Shown piece after piece: positions 5,164-20,800 of a stretch of DNA of 64,000 bases. Position 1 is the stretch's first letter. Each line of letters opens with the position of its first letter. The notes beneath the pieces were generated by a model. That model saw nothing but the letters and a program-made list of their open reading frames with translations, had not been told where the DNA came from and searched no databases. The translations under genes were made by a program, and so were the position numbers. This DNA comes from Pseudooctadecabacter jejudonensis (GTDB taxonomy: Bacteria; Pseudomonadota; Alphaproteobacteria; Rhodobacterales; Rhodobacteraceae), in the NCBI RefSeq assembly GCF_900172275.1, contig NZ_FWFT01000006.1:1-64000 (forward strand). Direction: 5' to 3'.

Positions 5164-5189
5164 AACGTCTCTGTCCGGTGCAAAGTTCC
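5164..5189 (-). promoter_or_regulatory. EcfG-type promoter for the DUF883/holin-like pair
   Basis: Read on the - strand: GGAAC (5189-5185), 17 bases, CGTT (5167-5164). Exact consensus match, 34 nt upstream of the ATG at 5130. Confidence 0.75.
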
Positions 5190-5855: not shown

Positions 5856-7571
5856 TCAAAAGTCTTGTTGCGACAGTTTGCTTGTCTCAACCTCAAAGAC
5901 GACTTCGATCCGATACAGGCCCTCTGGTTCAGTGACCTTCAACGATCCATTCAACTGGGCACAAAAGGCCCGGATCAACTGGCGCCCCAGTCCCGGAATA
6001 TAGCCCGGTTCATGCTGCGGTTCGACAGTCCCATCGGTCGAATTTTCGACGATCATTTCGACATTTTGCGCTGCCAACTGTCTAAGACCAACCTCGATTG
6101 TCGGGTTGGCCCCGCCAACGTATTTGCGCGCATTGCTGACACATTCAGACAAAAGCATCGTGAAGGGCACCGCCTGATCCGGAAGGATCGTTACAGATGT
6201 CAAATCCAACCGAATGTCGATACCTGCGGACAGTGCTGACGCAGTCTCCGGCCCTTGCGTTATCAATTCCCGGATAAGGTCAGCGGCATCAAGACGGCTC
6301 AAAGACTCCGTTTGATACAAGGTCTGATGCACACTCGACAAACCCAGAATTCTGTCCTGCACCTGCCGCAAGGTTGATCGCGTCTCAGCCTCGTCGGCTT
6401 TGCGAATTTGCATGTTCATGATCGAGGAAATGATCTGCAGGTTGTTCTTCACCCTGTGGTGGATTTCCTTGAGAAGGATCGATTTCTCTCGCACCTGGTC
6501 TTCGAGCTTGGCTTCATCGCGCAAGATACGACTTGCCATGGTCATGAAGGAGGCATTCAACTCTTCAAGTTCAGACGACACGTTCATTGGTGTGGATTTT
6601 GGCAAAGTGCGGTTGTTGGCGAAGCGAACCATGTCGCGGTTCAGGTCGGCGATCCGGTTCACAACAAACCGGTCGATGACAAACCAAGCCACAAACAGGC
6701 TGGCCAGCCACATCAAAAACGGCAGCAAAGTGCTGGTCAGCGGGGTGAGGCTTGCATTGCCCGCATCCGCGTCCGGTCCCCACAGTCCCAGGGCATAGGC
6801 GACATCGGGAATGATCGGGACGACAGAATAGGACAAATCGCGGCCAGACCGGCTGGTGCCGCTGAACGTGCGCGCATAGCCCCCGGTCAAATCGGCCAAG
6901 GCCACATCGTTTGGCAACAATGCCTCAGTCATCTGCAAATCGACGTCAGATGTCATCAATAGGCCATCAGCATTGAACGTTATCAACGTGATGGGTTCAG
7001 CTTCTCCCAGGAAATCCGGTTGGGACATGATCGTTTCGATCGGTGTCGACAAAGAAACGAACCCTGCGAACCCTTCGTCATCGAAAAGCGGATGGCTGAA
7101 AATCAAAACCGCCTGACCCGAGGCCGCCCCTTGCCGCGCCACGGACAAATAGGGGCGCGGGTTGGCCGCATAGTCCTGAAATTCTTGTGAGTCCGAAAAG
7201 TCCAGAACCTGCGGATCGCTGGAACAAACAGACCAGCCTTCGGCGCTGATCAACCCGACGTAGGCAAATTCCGACAGGGGCCCTGTTCGATCCTGCACGA
7301 ATTGGGGGCAGTTGTCAGTTTGCCCCATGCGCCCATCAAAGTTGGCCGCCAACAATTCGGCGTTGCCAAAAGAACGCTGTATGGCAAGCCGCTCACCCGA
7401 CGCGGCCTGTTCTGTAAGAGCCTGTAGCGAAAGGGCGGTGCGTCGGTCAATCTCAGCATCCAACCTATGGTTCTGCACGACGCTGATAATGCCCAATGGC
7501 ACCAAGGCGATCGTCAGAAAGATCAGAACACGTGCGGTCAGGCGCTGATGGAGGCCGACCTTTTGCGTCAC
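5856..7571 (-). CDS. HisKA_2-type sensor histidine kinase of the general stress response
   Basis: 571 aa. A transmembrane helix (about 14-33) is followed by a periplasmic sensor domain (about 40-275, with three or so Cys) and a second helix (about 282-303), then a linker. The dimerisation/phosphoacceptor helix carries the HisKA_2 motif EIHHRVKNNLQ at 369-379, with His371 or His372 as acceptor, and a C-terminal ATPase domain follows with the N-box SECVSNARKY. Kinases of this type phosphorylate PhyR. The start overlaps the ecfG stop by 4 nt. The co-encoded sigma factor and anti-sigma make PhyR the likely target; the signal sensed is unknown. Confidence 0.85.
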   Translation of the reverse strand: MTQKVGLHQRLTARVLIFLTIALVPLGIISVVQNHRLDAEIDRRTALSLQALTEQAASGERLAIQRSFGNAELLAANFDGRMGQTDNCPQFVQDRTGPLSEFAYVGLISAEGWSVCSSDPQVLDFSDSQEFQDYAANPRPYLSVARQGAASGQAVLIFSHPLFDDEGFAGFVSLSTPIETIMSQPDFLGEAEPITLITFNADGLLMTSDVDLQMTEALLPNDVALADLTGGYARTFSGTSRSGRDLSYSVVPIIPDVAYALGLWGPDADAGNASLTPLTSTLLPFLMWLASLFVAWFVIDRFVVNRIADLNRDMVRFANNRTLPKSTPMNVSSELEELNASFMTMASRILRDEAKLEDQVREKSILLKEIHHRVKNNLQIISSIMNMQIRKADEAETRSTLRQVQDRILGLSSVHQTLYQTESLSRLDAADLIRELITQGPETASALSAGIDIRLDLTSVTILPDQAVPFTMLLSECVSNARKYVGGANPTIEVGLRQLAAQNVEMIVENSTDGTVEPQHEPGYIPGLGRQLIRAFCAQLNGSLKVTEPEGLYRIEVVFEVETSKLSQQDF

Positions 7572-8128
7572 CGCATTGCCCCGTTGGCCCGTGCCGCAAC
7601 AACCGCCAACGTAGCACTGTCGGTCAATTCCATAGCGTCGTCAGAGGAAAGGTGCATCAGTTCAGCCAATTTCGCACGGCCACGGTTCACGCGGCTTTTG
7701 ATCGTTCCAACAGCCACCTCGCAGGTGGCTGCCGCTTCTTCGTACGAAAAACCAGACGCCCCGACAAGGATCAGCGCCTCGCGTTGTTCATCCGGTAACT
7801 TACTGAACGCACGTTGGAAGTCTGCCATTTGTAGCCGGCCATCATGATCAGGCTTCTGCGAGAGGCTCTCCGTAAATACACCGTCAACATCAGCGACCTC
7901 CCGTTTGGCTTTGCGCCGGTTTGAATAATATGTGTTGCGCAGGATGGTGAACAGCCAAGCGCGCAGGTTTGTTCCGGGTTGGAACATGTCAATTTTGGTC
8001 CAAGCTTTGACGAGGGTGTCTTGCACCATATCGTCTGCGATCGCGGAATTGCGGGTAAGGGACATGGCAAAGGCCCGCATGGCGGGCAGGTGGTCGACCA
8101 ATTCGTCCCGCGGATCAACGGAACTCAT
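7568..8128 (-). CDS. ecfG: EcfG-type RNA polymerase sigma factor (general stress response)
   Basis: 186 aa with sigma region 2 (DELVDHLPAMRAFAMSLTRN at 8-27 through LRAWLFTILRNTYYSNRRK) and region 4 (LPDEQREALILVGASGFSYEEAA ... GTIKSRVNRGR). It lacks the anti-sigma or extra C-terminal domains of other ECF groups. EcfG binds GGAAC...CGTT promoters and is held by NepR until phosphorylated PhyR takes NepR away. The ATG overlaps the nepR stop by 4 nt, so the two are made together. The promoter at 8345-8376 matches the EcfG consensus, so the operon is probably autoregulated. Confidence 0.93.
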   Translation of the reverse strand: MSSVDPRDELVDHLPAMRAFAMSLTRNSAIADDMVQDTLVKAWTKIDMFQPGTNLRAWLFTILRNTYYSNRRKAKREVADVDGVFTESLSQKPDHDGRLQMADFQRAFSKLPDEQREALILVGASGFSYEEAAATCEVAVGTIKSRVNRGRAKLAELMHLSSDDAMELTDSATLAVVAARANGAMR

Positions 8129-8298
8129 TTGGCCTCCCCCGTGTTGCCGCCGTCAGACGGCTCTTGCTGTTTCAACTGTGCAAGAAGGTCCTTGAAACGA
8201 TCCGGAATTTCTTGGTTCAAAACGTCATCATAGACGCGTTTCAAATTCGCGTTAATGGCGTCATCTTCGCCATTCGCCGTGTCATCGTTGTGTGCCAT
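8125..8298 (-). CDS. nepR: NepR anti-sigma factor
   Basis: 57 aa. The core (residues 18-45: NLKRVYDDVLNQEIPDRF then KDLLAQLKQ) is the NepR signature of two short helices; the flanking acidic N-terminus and Gly/Pro-rich C-terminus look disordered, as is usual. NepR binds EcfG and keeps it from RNA polymerase; phosphorylated PhyR displaces it. The reading frame starts at the ATG at 8298 and overlaps ecfG by ATGA. Confidence 0.92.
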   Translation of the reverse strand: MAHNDDTANGEDDAINANLKRVYDDVLNQEIPDRFKDLLAQLKQQEPSDGGNTGEAK

Positions 8299-8344
8299 AT
8301 ATGCTAGGACCCCTCAATCAGGTCGAAAATAATCGTACGCGTCG

Positions 8345-8376
8345 GGAACCAAACGTCGCTCTTTGCGTTTGGTTCC
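8345..8376. promoter_or_regulatory. Palindromic, divergent EcfG-type promoter for nepR-ecfG and phyR
   Basis: A perfect 11-bp inverted repeat (GGAACCAAACG at 8345-8355, CGTTTGGTTCC at 8366-8376) around a 10-base centre. Each strand reads GGAAC-N16-CGTT, so the same 32 bp is a full EcfG promoter in both directions. On the + strand it lies 28 nt before phyR; on the - strand 47 nt before nepR. Confidence 0.88.
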
Positions 8377-8403
8377 ATAAAAATATTCAAGGGATGTCAA
8401 AAA

Positions 8404-9207
8404 ATGACGAGTTCGGAAGACTTCACAGCAGCGGTCGGAAATGCGTTGCCCTTTCTGCGGCGCTATGGGCGCGCTTTGACGGGTGATCAAACCACAGGCG
8501 ATACTTACGCTGCCGCAGCACTTGAAGCGCTTTTGACGGACCGGTCGACCGCCACGGGCTCAAGCTCCGTGAAAGTGGGCCTGTTTAAAGTATTCCATAC
8601 CCTCTGGAAAAGTTCCGGCTCTCCGGTCGATGACGGCGAAAGCGGTCTGCGCGCCACAGCACAGCGCCATCTTTCGCGGCTGACCGAAAACACCCGCGAG
8701 GCCCTTTTGTTGTCCACCATCGAAGAGTTCAAGTTGGGCGAAGTGGCCGAGATCATGCAGGTCGAGGTGTCCGAGGCCGAACATCTGGTCAATTTGGCAC
8801 GGGTTGAGATGGAAGACGCGATTTCGGGCAGCGTCATGATCATCGAAGACGAAGCGATTATCGCCATGGATCTGGAATCCGTCGTGGCAGACATGGGGCA
8901 CCGCGTGACCGGAATTGCACGCACCCAATCAGAGGCTGTGGCGCTTGCCAATGCAGACCGCCCCGATCTGATCCTCAGTGACATCCAGCTCGCAGACAAT
9001 TCGTCCGGGATTGATGCAACGAACGACATCCTCTCCGCCCATCCCGGTCTCCCTGTCATCTTTATCACTGCATTCCCGGAACGTTTGCTGACAGGCGAAT
9101 GCAAAGAGCCCGCCTTCCTGATCTCAAAACCATATACGGAACATCAGGTCCGGTCGGCTGTCAGTCAGGCCATGTTCTTTTCGTCGACCGAAACTCTGTC
9201 GAGCTGA
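8404..9207 (+). CDS. phyR: PhyR anti-anti-sigma response regulator
   Basis: 267 aa. The N-terminal half (about 1-135) is a sigma-like domain with degenerate region 2 and region 4 that mimics EcfG; the C-terminal half (about 142-260) is a receiver with acidic pocket IIEDE, the phosphoacceptor Asp193 in LILSDIQL, Thr in FITAF and Lys in LISKPY. Phosphorylation opens the sigma-like domain to NepR. Gene placement opposite nepR-ecfG is typical of the locus in alphaproteobacteria. A terminator follows the stop. Confidence 0.95.
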   Translation: MTSSEDFTAAVGNALPFLRRYGRALTGDQTTGDTYAAAALEALLTDRSTATGSSSVKVGLFKVFHTLWKSSGSPVDDGESGLRATAQRHLSRLTENTREALLLSTIEEFKLGEVAEIMQVEVSEAEHLVNLARVEMEDAISGSVMIIEDEAIIAMDLESVVADMGHRVTGIARTQSEAVALANADRPDLILSDIQLADNSSGIDATNDILSAHPGLPVIFITAFPERLLTGECKEPAFLISKPYTEHQVRSAVSQAMFFSSTETLSS

Positions 9208-9812: not shown

Positions 9813-9837
9813 AACGCACATCCGTCTTTTATGTTCC
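9813..9837 (-). promoter_or_regulatory. EcfG-type promoter for dps
   Basis: Read on the - strand: GGAAC (9837-9833), 16 bases, CGTT (9816-9813). Exact match to the consensus, 31 nt before the dps ATG, in the 56-nt gap after the upstream gene. Confidence 0.85.
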
Positions 9838-10174: not shown

Positions 10175-10209
10175 TTAGCTGCTCAGTTCTGAAATTCCCT
10201 CCCCCTTAT

Positions 10210-10234
10210 GGAACTGTCTGGCCTGCCACGCATT
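10210..10234 (+). promoter_or_regulatory. Candidate EcfG-type promoter (one mismatch)
   Basis: GGAAC (10210-10214), 16 bases, CATT (10231-10234). It lies 36 nt before the TTG start chosen for the Crp/Fnr gene. Confidence 0.5.
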
Positions 10235-10270
10235 AAACTAGGACATAGCAAACAGAGGAAGGAACAAGTT

Positions 10271-10999
10271 TTGTCGACAATGTGTGAAACATGCCCGCTG
10301 CATAAAAGTGAGTTGTTTCAGGATGTTCCAGATGACCAAAGGCAGATCACTCAGCGCTATAAATCTGGGGAATTGCGGGTTGAACCCGGTACACCGCTGA
10401 TGATGGAGGGATCGAACGCGCCTCAACTTTACACCGCTCTGCGGGGAATGGGCCTGCGTTATACGACACTGCCAAATGGCAATCGTCAGGTGATTAATTT
10501 TATTTTTCCAGGCGATTTTATCGGTCTTCAAGCGGGCGTGATGGGTGAAATGCACCATTCGGTCGAAGCGACGACGTCCATGACCCTGTGTGTGTTTGAT
10601 CGGTCCGAATTTTTCAATTTTTTCAAATCAAACCCATACCGCGGGTACGACATCACGTGGATGGCCGCGACCGAAGAACATTTCTTGGGCGACAGCTTGG
10701 CAACGGTTGGTCAACGGTCGGCATATGAAGCTGTGTCATGGGCCCTTTATAAGCTGTTCCAGAAAGGCGACGCTTTGGGGATGGTAAATGCCGCCCAGAT
10801 GCCATTGCCCTTTCGCCAACAGGATTTGGCCGATGCGCTTGGCCTGTCCCTCGTCCACACCAACAAAACGCTGGCCAAACTGCGGTCCAAACAACTTGCG
10901 TCTTGGTCGGATGGCAAATTGCAGGTGAACGATTGTGAGGCTTTGGCCGAGGCCGCCTTGGTTGAGCATGAGCCGCTGAAACCAAGACCCTTTTTGTAA
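10271..10999 (+). CDS. Crp/Fnr-family transcriptional regulator
   Basis: About 242 aa. A cyclic-nucleotide-type beta-barrel (GTPLMMEGSNAPQLYTALRG ... INFIFPGDFIGL) is followed by a dimerisation helix and a winged helix-turn-helix near residues 180-205 (FRQQDLADALGLSLVHTNKTLAKLR). The N-terminus has the Cys motif MCETCPLHK. The TTG at 10271 is chosen because AGGAAGG lies eight bases upstream; the ATG at 10280 has 17 bases to the same site, and the ATG at 10208 overlaps the putative promoter. Whether the Cys pair binds a cofactor is unknown. Confidence 0.8.
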   Translation: MSTMCETCPLHKSELFQDVPDDQRQITQRYKSGELRVEPGTPLMMEGSNAPQLYTALRGMGLRYTTLPNGNRQVINFIFPGDFIGLQAGVMGEMHHSVEATTSMTLCVFDRSEFFNFFKSNPYRGYDITWMAATEEHFLGDSLATVGQRSAYEAVSWALYKLFQKGDALGMVNAAQMPLPFRQQDLADALGLSLVHTNKTLAKLRSKQLASWSDGKLQVNDCEALAEAALVEHEPLKPRPFL

Positions 11000-11293: not shown

Positions 11294-11319
11294 AACGATG
11301 ACGGACAGGGGGCAGTTCC
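11294..11319 (-). promoter_or_regulatory. EcfG-type promoter for the TUDOR-like gene
   Basis: Read on the - strand: GGAAC (11319-11315), 17 bases, CGTT (11297-11294). Exact match, in the gap between the FNT gene and the small gene, 28 nt before the ATG. Confidence 0.8.
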
Positions 11320-12250: not shown

Positions 12251-12276
12251 GGAACCAAACTGCGGCCCCCTGCGTT
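12251..12276 (+). promoter_or_regulatory. EcfG-type promoter for the MscS gene
   Basis: GGAAC (12251-12255), 17 bases, CGTT (12273-12276); exact consensus, 29 nt before the ATG at 12306. Confidence 0.83.
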
Positions 12277-17813: not shown

Positions 17814-20800
17814 TCAGTCGTCCATTTCCTCAAAAGCGCCGACAATCTGCTGAAGATGACCGGTGCCGTCCAGAATGGCGATGCCATTGCTTTGTACGCG
17901 AATTTCGGTCCCATCCGCCCGGATAAGTCGGGCCGTGAATTCAAACTCACCCCCTTGGGTCGACACCTCTTCCACGTGACGGCGCACCTTGTCGCGGTCG
18001 TCTTTATGGAAAAACTCAATCGCCCGATCCAAGTCCGGAGTCCCCTCACTTTCGGGAAAGCCATGCAATTCAAACACGCGGCTGGACCAGTAAATCTGCC
18101 GGGTCAGCGGGTTGATTTCCCAATATCCAAATCCGGCCAACTCCTGCAGATGACGGAACCGTTCGATCAGCGCATTCGTGTGACTGGCCGCCTTCAAGAT
18201 GTTGGTCACGTCCAGTGCAATGTTGTAAATTGATTGGCCGTCTCTGTGTGGGGCGTCAAACAGTCGGCTTTCCATCGACAGATAGGTGGTGTCTTTGCCA
18301 TCTTCACCGCCGAATTCGACGATCTGGGCTCTGCCGTCCGTGTCTTCGGCCGAGGCCAGCAAACGTTCGTCCTTACCCACAAGCGCGTCACACCACGACG
18401 CGGGAAGAAGGTCCTTGATGTTGCGGCCCAATGCCTTTTCCGCGTCCAGACCAAAGGTTTCAGCCAGCCTTTTGGACATGCGAAGGATTGTCCCGTCTGG
18501 CGTCCGGTTCATCAGTTGAATTTGCGACGACCCAAGGATCATCTCCATCTCACGGGCAAGGCCGGGGAACTGCGTGATCACCATCGTCAGGCCCAAAATC
18601 TTCCCGTGCACGTCAAAATAAGGCGTACAGCTGAGGATGACGCGGTTGCCTTCGGATGAAAACTCCTGCGTGGATGTCGTGCCCAGCTTCAGTGTTTCGC
18701 TGCAAATCGGCGACAGGGCAGGGTAGCCCTCCGGCAGAACCGCCTGAGAGATATGCGGCGTCGTAATCGGTTGTTTCAATTGGAACAATTCAGCGGCGGC
18801 CGTGGTGGCCTGCGTGATCTGCAGCGCGCTGTCGGTCACCATGATGGCAAGCGGCGTGCTTTGCAGAACCGATGTCAGCTCACCTGTCCGTCCGCTCAAT
18901 TCTGTGGCGGTGATCTGCAATTCCTCGTTCACCGTGATCAGTTCTTCATTGGTGGACTGCAATTCCTCGTTCGAGGTTTCGAGCTCTTCGTTCGTGGCCT
19001 GCAATTCCTCATTGGTGGATTGCAGCTCTTCATTCAGCGCCTGCAGCTCTTCGTTCGACGTTTCCAGCTGTTCAATGGTCTGCTGCAAGGCTTCACGGGT
19101 GACGGCGACCTCGTTTTCAAGGTCTTTGATCCGCTCAGACACGCTTTCGTCCAACTCAAGCGTTTCGGCCTTGGCGGCCAGCGGGTCGGGCGACTTGGCA
19201 ACCGGTGTGAAGGCCACCACAGCCACCCGTTCGGCCAGCGATTTGGCCACAATCGGATAGACGTTCAGCCGGATATCGAACTCATCCTTTTCATCCATCC
19301 GGTGACGCACGCCGGTGCGTTGTGCCCCGTGCCGCAAAGCGACAGAAACCAAACTGCGCGCCTCTTCGCGCAGCGGGCTTTTCAGCAATTCAAGGTGCAT
19401 CTTCAGCTTACTGCTTTGATTTACCTCAATATATTCACTGATCGATCCGTTCACGGACATGATCGTTCCGTCTTCGGTCACAAGCACCGATTTTTCGCCC
19501 AGCGATTTGACCAAAGCCTCAAACAGGTGCCGGTCCGCACTGGTGTCGATGTCTTGATCGGTCCGCCGTGTCTGGCGGCCCGTATAAAGCGGCATGCTGG
19601 GCATGGCGTAGTTGGTGATCGTCTTGCCTTTGCCCAAGATCCGCTTGCGATAGACGTGGGAATTGTTGTCGTCCTGCAAGAACAATTCATCGGACCCCGC
19701 GACGCTTTCAGCGGTGCCCAAGAACAACAGCGCGTCCGACGCCATCGAGTAATGGAACCGCGCCATCACCTTCTTCTGCAGGGAATTTCCGAAATAAATC
19801 AAAAGGTTGCGACAGCACAACAGGTGAACCTTCTGGAACGGCGGATCCTGACAGACGTTGTGATCCGAAAACAGAACCGCCCCGCGCAACCGGTCCGTGA
19901 TGCGGATGCCGTCGCCATGCTGGATGAGATATTTCTTCGCCAGATCAGGCGGAATGTCATTCAGCGCCGCATTGCTGTAGATCCCCGCGCGCGCAACCTG
20001 CAAGGCTTCCTTGTCGATGTCGGTCGCAAAAATCTGTACCTTTTCCTTCAGCGGCACGTTGGGTCCGCCCAAGGCCTCAGAGATCAGCATAGCAATCGAA
20101 TAGGCCTCTTCGCCCGTGGCACAGCCCGCAATCCAGACCCGCACGGGGCCGTTTTGCCGTTTGGACAAAAGCTCTGGCAGCAGTTCGTTCAGTTTGCGGA
20201 ATTCTTCCTTGTCCCGGAAAAACCGTGTGACGGAGATCAGAAGATCCTTGAACAGGGCATCGACAGCCTGCGGATTGTTGCGCAGGAAATGTGTGTATTC
20301 GTCTTGGTTATCGATCCCAAGCGCGGTCATCCTGCGTTCAATCCGGCGGGTGATGGTCGTCTGTTTGTAATCGCGAAAGTCCACACGGGTCCGCGCCAAC
20401 AGGATCTGCAACAAATCAGAGATCGGCGTTTCCTGCAGCTCTTCCTTGCGGAAGGCAGAGAAATCACGCGCAGAGGTCAGAATTTTCTGAAGGTGCGTGC
20501 CGATTTCAACGGGCCGCAGCACAAGATCAACGCAGCCCGTTTGCACCGCAGCTTGTGGCATGCCGTCGTACTTTGCCGAATTGCTGTCTTGGGCAATCGT
20601 AATGCCGCCGGCTTCGCGAATGGCCTGCACACCGTAAGCGCCGTCCGATCCGGTCCCCGACAGGATCATCGCAACCGCGTTTGATCCGTGATCCTCCGCA
20701 AGGCTCACCAGAAACCTGTCCACCGATGGTTTCGGGGCAGAGGGCAGATCACTTGGATCAATCAGACGAAGTTGACCGTCTTTAAGGACCACATCGGTCT

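Follow-up and report, generated by a model that had tools for sequence, protein, structure and literature searches.

How is transcription divided between the two arms of a regulatory switch when the promoters predicted for both arms occupy the same 32 bp? This question is raised by the gap between phyR and nepR-ecfG in Pseudooctadecabacter jejudonensis, for which a preliminary description had proposed a single palindromic EcfG promoter facing both ways, with the two transcripts competing for it and thereby tied together in an unusual manner. The working of partner-switch stress systems hinges on the proportions of anti-anti-sigma factor, anti-sigma factor and sigma factor, and if one exclusive promoter makes them, this ratio would be fixed at the level of the DNA in much of a large bacterial family. 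Were this true, the means by which such switches avoid runaway autoactivation would become addressable by single base changes. From the sequence comparisons reported here we consider it probable that the element comprises two opposed and interlocked EcfG promoters, between whose orientations the polymerase would have to choose, an exclusion that may in turn matter for output.

Results

The window analysed, a 64-kb stretch of DNA to which all positions refer, holds every component of a PhyR-NepR-EcfG locus, namely a PhyR with sigma-like and receiver domains, a NepR, an ECF sigma factor and an HWE/HisKA2 kinase. The phyR gene (8404-9207, forward strand) encodes an anti-anti-sigma factor of 267 residues (PF22029, PF22233 and PF00072; NF006623 above cut-off). 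On the reverse strand lie nepR (8125-8298), encoding an anti-sigma factor of 57 residues (PF18557 at 61.6 bits, with an NF051865 match below its cut-off), ecfG (7568-8128), encoding an ECF sigma factor of 186 residues (PF04542 and PF08281; NF009198 above cut-off), and a gene for a PhyK-like HisKA_2/HWE sensor histidine kinase (5856-7571; PF07568, with an NF051872 match below its curated cut-off). The stop codon of nepR overlaps the start codon of ecfG (ATGA) and the kinase gene overlaps the end of ecfG, and because of these overlapping ends the three genes probably constitute one operon.

The element itself (8345-8376, assigned to neither strand) consists of a left arm, GGAACCAAACG (8345-8355), a loop of 10 nt (8356-8365) and a right arm, CGTTTGGTTCC (8366-8376). 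The arms, 11 nt each, are 100% complementary in a repeat search of the window, and GGAAC-N16-CGTT is present on both strands (8345-8369 forward, 8352-8376 reverse), such that the perfect inverted repeat of the preliminary description is confirmed by direct reading as well as by repeat and pattern searches. On the forward strand the predicted promoter of phyR has its -35 box, GGAAC, at 8345-8349 and, after a spacer of 16, its -10 box, CGTT, at 8366-8369, with a predicted start site at about 8375-8378; on the reverse strand the predicted promoter of nepR-ecfG-kinase has the same boxes at 8376-8372 and 8355-8352, again with a spacer of 16 and a predicted start site at about 8343-8346. Both strands thus carry the exact GGAAC and CGTT boxes, 16-17 bp apart, of an EcfG (ECF15-type) promoter, for which a -10 of the form C/GGTT is also given in the available text of PMC12148442, and general stress response genes, phyR and nepR-ecfG, flank the element in a genome that bears EcfG. 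The consensus match and the placement of the genes together support the proposal of one EcfG promoter per strand. The symmetry extends from the outer edge of each -35 box to the inner edge of each -10 box, and 9 of the 11 bp in each arm are required by two superimposed promoters; the additional symmetric positions are the 2 bp between each -35 and the opposing -10, which are less conserved in relatives. An inverted repeat of this kind could also fold as a hairpin in the mRNA leaders, as an attenuator or terminator, but the start sites predicted from the promoter geometry fall at its outer edges and would leave the repeat in neither mRNA, and we give this explanation practically no credence.

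With a spacer of 15-18, the GGAAC/CGTT pattern has seven matches in the window, two of which are the pair at 8345-8376; shuffled windows have 2.9 on average, and 2 of 100 shuffles reach seven. The whole genome has eight pairs of opposed GGAAC/GTTCC boxes at a distance of 30-33 bp, as against 38 in the reversed control, so that the -35 pair alone is not rare. When the -10 cores are required as well, at 32-33 bp, the genome holds a single match, which is the element described here. A genome-wide count of the single pattern (spacer 15-18) was useless as a list of regulon members, as its 132 matches compare with 278 in the reversed control.

Within the window, four of the five other pattern sites lie directly upstream of stress-type genes. 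With a spacer of 16 or 17, such sites stand close upstream of genes for a Dps/ferritin protein (9813-9837, reverse), an Hva1_TUDOR protein (11294-11319, reverse), an MscS channel (12251-12276, forward) and a DUF883 protein whose start codon is uncertain (5164-5189, reverse); the fifth is at 19835-19859. A small EcfG regulon thus appears, from these sites, to be clustered around the phyR locus.

To place the element among its relatives, phyR loci of the Rhodobacteraceae were assembled from three sources. A search of 198 family genomes, sampled at about one per genus, found PhyR in 89 of them at 95 places, of which 90 were used and five with a truncated PhyR left out. An order-level search, in which all matching genomes proved to be of the same family, contributed 25 further loci from among its places, and a further 80 were the best 80 of 561 confirmed named loci, mostly titled as Rhodobacteraceae genera and assigned to the family by name and by a PhyR identity of 58-81%. 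Removal of nine duplicates (identical over the 100 bp upstream of phyR) and of eight loci without a divergent ecfG left 178 distinct loci. The eight set aside were L015, L031, L056, L201, L159, L089, L090 and L193, the last of these cut by a contig end; near phyR in L089 and L090 no nepR, ecfG or EcfG site was found. The switch is patchy in the family, as 109 of the 198 genomes gave no PhyR match, and the one congeneric genome sampled (G145, 99% complete) had none at E 1e-20.

A locus was counted as interlocked where two exact, opposed GGAAC boxes lie between ecfG and phyR at 30-33 bp from outer edge to outer edge. Such a pair is present in 155 of the 178 loci, while 200 mononucleotide shuffles average 0.2 per set, and in 78 of 85 within the subset of about one locus per genus (L001-L090, the window included). 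The preliminary description had named poor conservation of one half of the palindrome as grounds for abandoning its reading; these counts, with both -35s exact in 155 of 178, do not show such poor conservation. Other tallies of the family pairs differ with the rule applied, being 148 under a one-mismatch limit with a tie rule and, for both -35s exact, 154 in a mismatch-tolerant pair search. A strict pattern of both -35s and both -10 cores matches 97 of 394 family genomes, in one copy each except for one genome with two; the reversed control yielded none among the matches listed, and all ten of the strict matches examined sit between phyR and ecfG.

Among the 155 interlocked loci the outer length is 32 bp in 91, 33 bp in 54, 31 bp in nine and 30 bp in one, and the spacers track it (16 and 16 with 32 bp, 17 and 17 with 33 bp). 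In 150 of them neither -10 has more than one mismatch, and both are exactly CGTT in 71; in the other 84 at least one departs from CGTT, by two bases in five, the variants including TGTT, GGTT and AGTT. Between a -10 and the opposing -35 there are 1-2 bases in 144 of 150 loci and three in the remaining six, while the loop between the -10s has almost no information content (in loci preselected for exact -35s and -10s with at most one mismatch). Arms as perfect as those of the window, at 11 or 12 bp, occur in 29 of 148 loci, and in 87 of the rest the perfect match ends after 5-6 bp. Because length and spacer vary together, the distance from -10 to opposing -35 is kept within narrow bounds and the loop is uninformative, what these alignments indicate to be conserved is a promoter geometry, and not a fixed palindrome.

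The same data bear on the idea that a dimeric regulator uses the palindrome as its operator, the promoter match being incidental. Perfect inverted repeats are typical of operators, and a Crp/Fnr-family gene, a type that might supply such a regulator, lies nearby (10208-10999). However, the concerted variation of length (30-33 bp) and 16/17 spacer, the retention of a promoter core by the variant -10s, the presence of single matches to this pattern upstream of dps and of mscS, and the survival of one half only beside lone phyR genes (below) all argue against an operator, which we hold to be very improbable.

On a PhyR tree (FastTree, with many weak forks) the interlocked trait needs eight changes over the 178 loci, which makes an early origin in the family, followed by scattered losses, probable. 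That it is dispensable follows from the 23 loci without paired -35s, ten of which are named Paracoccus. Of these, 16 have a nepR-facing site only, none has a phyR-facing site only, four have both sites in weak, non-interlocked form and three have neither; on loss it is mostly the nepR-ecfG side that is retained. A TCTTGTG block, mostly followed by CGCAC or TGCAC, is shared by 11 loci about 60-80 bp upstream of phyR (L060 and the ten Paracoccus loci L177, L181, L190, L194, L195, L198, L202, L205, L208 and L216), all without paired -35s, and is perhaps a replacement phyR promoter under another sigma factor.

These losses raise the question of whether only the nepR-ecfG direction depends on EcfG, with the phyR half weak or vestigial and phyR served by another promoter. 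The bias of the losses towards the phyR side and the new block upstream of phyR in eleven pairless loci favour such a reading, as does the expression of phyR in Rhodobacter sphaeroides, where the available text of PMC5830050 has its mRNA not following that of ecfG under membrane stress. Against it, the phyR -10 is the more often exact of the two (109 as compared with 90 of the 155 interlocked loci), and where the two differ in quality it is the better in 39 loci and the nepR -10 in 21 (p 0.03, with relatedness not corrected for). With C/GGTT allowed, both -10s are acceptable in 79 of the 155, that of phyR alone in 43, that of nepR alone in 22 and neither in 11; by a stricter classification, two loci with paired -35s, L012 and L221, lack an acceptable -10 on the nepR side but have one on the phyR side. 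Furthermore, in all three loci where phyR has an EcfG site but no adjacent nepR or ecfG (L015, L031 and L056), the phyR-facing site is the one present, and L056 retains a relic GTTCA. In L201, which has a divergent nepR and in which no ecfG was found within 1.3 kb upstream, there is nevertheless a perfect interlocked element of 33 bp. The pattern of the lone phyR genes and of L201 is what use of both promoters would predict, in very few cases; L159, with a divergent nepR and no ecfG found, has no exact site. On balance we regard a promoter working in the nepR-ecfG direction alone as unlikely.

Outside the family, 48 divergent loci were examined, drawn from part of the places found in other families of Alphaproteobacteria; one of the searches behind them contributed 28 loci, five more of its places being left out. 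In 29 of the 48 the two sites are placed back to back, their -35s being separated by 6-14 bp (family f4 supplies 24 of these, and five other families the remaining five), four are interlocked, and 15 are neither, having wide gaps, one site, facing sites or none. The four interlocked loci all belong to a small family, f34, in which four of five genomes carry GGAACC...GGTTCC over 32 bp. Eight f4 loci that at first scored as interlocked, with a 2-bp offset, owed this to one-mismatch -10 boxes inside GTTCC and dropped out once the pair with the best match was used, and a further family (f129) was left uncounted, one locus (L098) looking interlocked with one -35 mismatch and its near relative (L227) not being interlocked. 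The arrangement that had been called unusual is therefore the rule in the family sample of P. jejudonensis, and deserves the word only in comparison with the other families sampled.

Discussion

The reading that we prefer is that EcfG promoters of opposite direction are interlocked at 8345-8376. They would be overlaid with an offset of 7 bp, each -10 sitting 2 bp inside the -35 of the other, and EcfG-RNA polymerase would bind in either orientation, one at a time. In one orientation it would make the phyR mRNA (anti-anti-sigma factor), and in the other the nepR-ecfG-kinase mRNA (anti-sigma factor, sigma factor and sensor). Since one promoter has its boxes within the other, simultaneous occupancy of the element by two holoenzymes is not to be expected; a steric constraint of this kind, precluding co-occupancy by two polymerases, is described for bidirectional promoters in the available text of PMC12825309. 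Of the competition first proposed for these 32 bp, physical exclusion thus follows from the geometry if both directions fire; that it also shapes expression is a supposition. Our inference is that transcription proceeds both ways here and that exclusion has an effect on output. A single DNA site would then serve the autoregulation of both arms of the switch by EcfG and impose a common ceiling on them, and how good each promoter is relative to the other, not how much EcfG is present, would determine the ratio of their mRNAs. When binding is exclusive, a simple occupancy model gives a constant ratio of phyR to nepR-ecfG at all EcfG levels and a total capped at the output of one promoter, whereas independent promoters drift to equal saturation. 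It is tempting to postulate that the interlock serves as a controller of stoichiometry and a brake on positive feedback, with a fixed synthesis ratio of PhyR to NepR-EcfG and a capped output; we offer this tentatively, and regard it as rather doubtful.

An alternative is that both promoters are real and interlocked, their activity being too low for competition to have any regulatory role, and that the overlap is an inherited, sequence-saving compaction. According to the available text of PMC12825309, the bidirectional promoters of E. coli do not compete while activity is basal; back-to-back sites suffice in other families (29 of 48 divergent loci, 24 belonging to f4), and the phyR side has been lost in some members of the Rhodobacteraceae. 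Against this stand the close spacing of each -10 and the -35 that opposes it, 1-2 bp in 144 of 150 loci despite a near-random loop, and the recurrence of the same geometry in f34. Furthermore, strong induction of the EcfG regulon is to be expected under stress, and in E. coli competition appeared only when activity was raised, as the same portion of that paper reports; by analogy, stress induction may supply the raised activity that competition needs. An overlap devoid of regulatory role is, in our estimation, quite conceivable, though we lean against it.

The claim that the two transcripts are tied together has fared less well. One locus of our sample (L045) carries the perfect element and appears, from its sequence, to be R. 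sphaeroides-like, since its NepR of 68 residues (from an internal ATG of a longer frame) equals the length given for RSP_1273 in the accessible part of PMC5830050. According to that part, phyR mRNA in R. sphaeroides rises 2-3 fold in response to singlet oxygen, paraquat and diamide but is not raised by membrane stress, it is membrane stress alone that raises ecfG mRNA, in a PhyR-dependent manner, and the nepR-ecfG promoter is placed opposite the phyR coding region. Different stresses for the two mRNAs are unlike a simple tying, and this weakens the claim of tied transcription, but not that of interlocked promoters: in R. sphaeroides, either one direction is favoured in the competition or additional promoters are at work.

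Among known systems, the closest likeness is to the bidirectional promoters of E. coli and other prokaryotes described by Warman, Grainger and colleagues (PMC12825309, from its available text), in which a pseudo-symmetric core is used in either orientation by one polymerase at a time to give divergent mRNAs; a symmetric core recognisable in both orientations is likewise found here at the level of sequence. Those promoters, however, use the housekeeping sigma factor and have a single -10 for both directions, the distance between their starts being mostly 18, 10 or 23 bp. At 8345-8376 each direction has its own -10 (8352-8355 and 8366-8369) and its own -35, a distance of about 31 bp is predicted between the starts, the sigma factor would be EcfG, and the products are parts of the switch that controls EcfG itself. 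The terms "sigma factor", "RpoE" and "ECF" have no occurrence in the text of PMC12825309. Judged from its sequence, the interlocked EcfG pair may be read as a variant of the bidirectional promoter, one that would add to the type, with its shared -10 of the housekeeping sigma factor, a second geometry and the use of an alternative sigma factor. The divergent phyR and nepR-ecfG loci of other Alphaproteobacteria are alike in genes, in orientation and in having EcfG promoters on both sides, and the two units are usually both under such promoters (available text of PMC4814048 and PMC8103513), but they differ in being mostly back to back, the four f34 loci apart. In Pseudomonas syringae, the accessible part of PMC5263251 has an ECF sigma holoenzyme at one of the divergent genes hrpL and hrpJ proposed to hinder the other; there, however, the other promoter is dependent on sigma-54, and that part describes no symmetry of two ECF promoters. 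In the open-access literature searched, which places most subscription papers outside our scope, no description of interlocked EcfG promoters was found. The interlocked, back-to-back, one-sided and solo loci form a natural comparison set.

A last observation concerns the flanks of the element. In the 155 interlocked family loci A/T-rich tracts lie 13-18 bp outside its left end and 5-8 and 12-16 bp outside its right end, and the window has the left tract (8326-8333) and the near right one (8377-8387). These tracts could be upstream elements for both promoters, or A-rich mRNA leaders.
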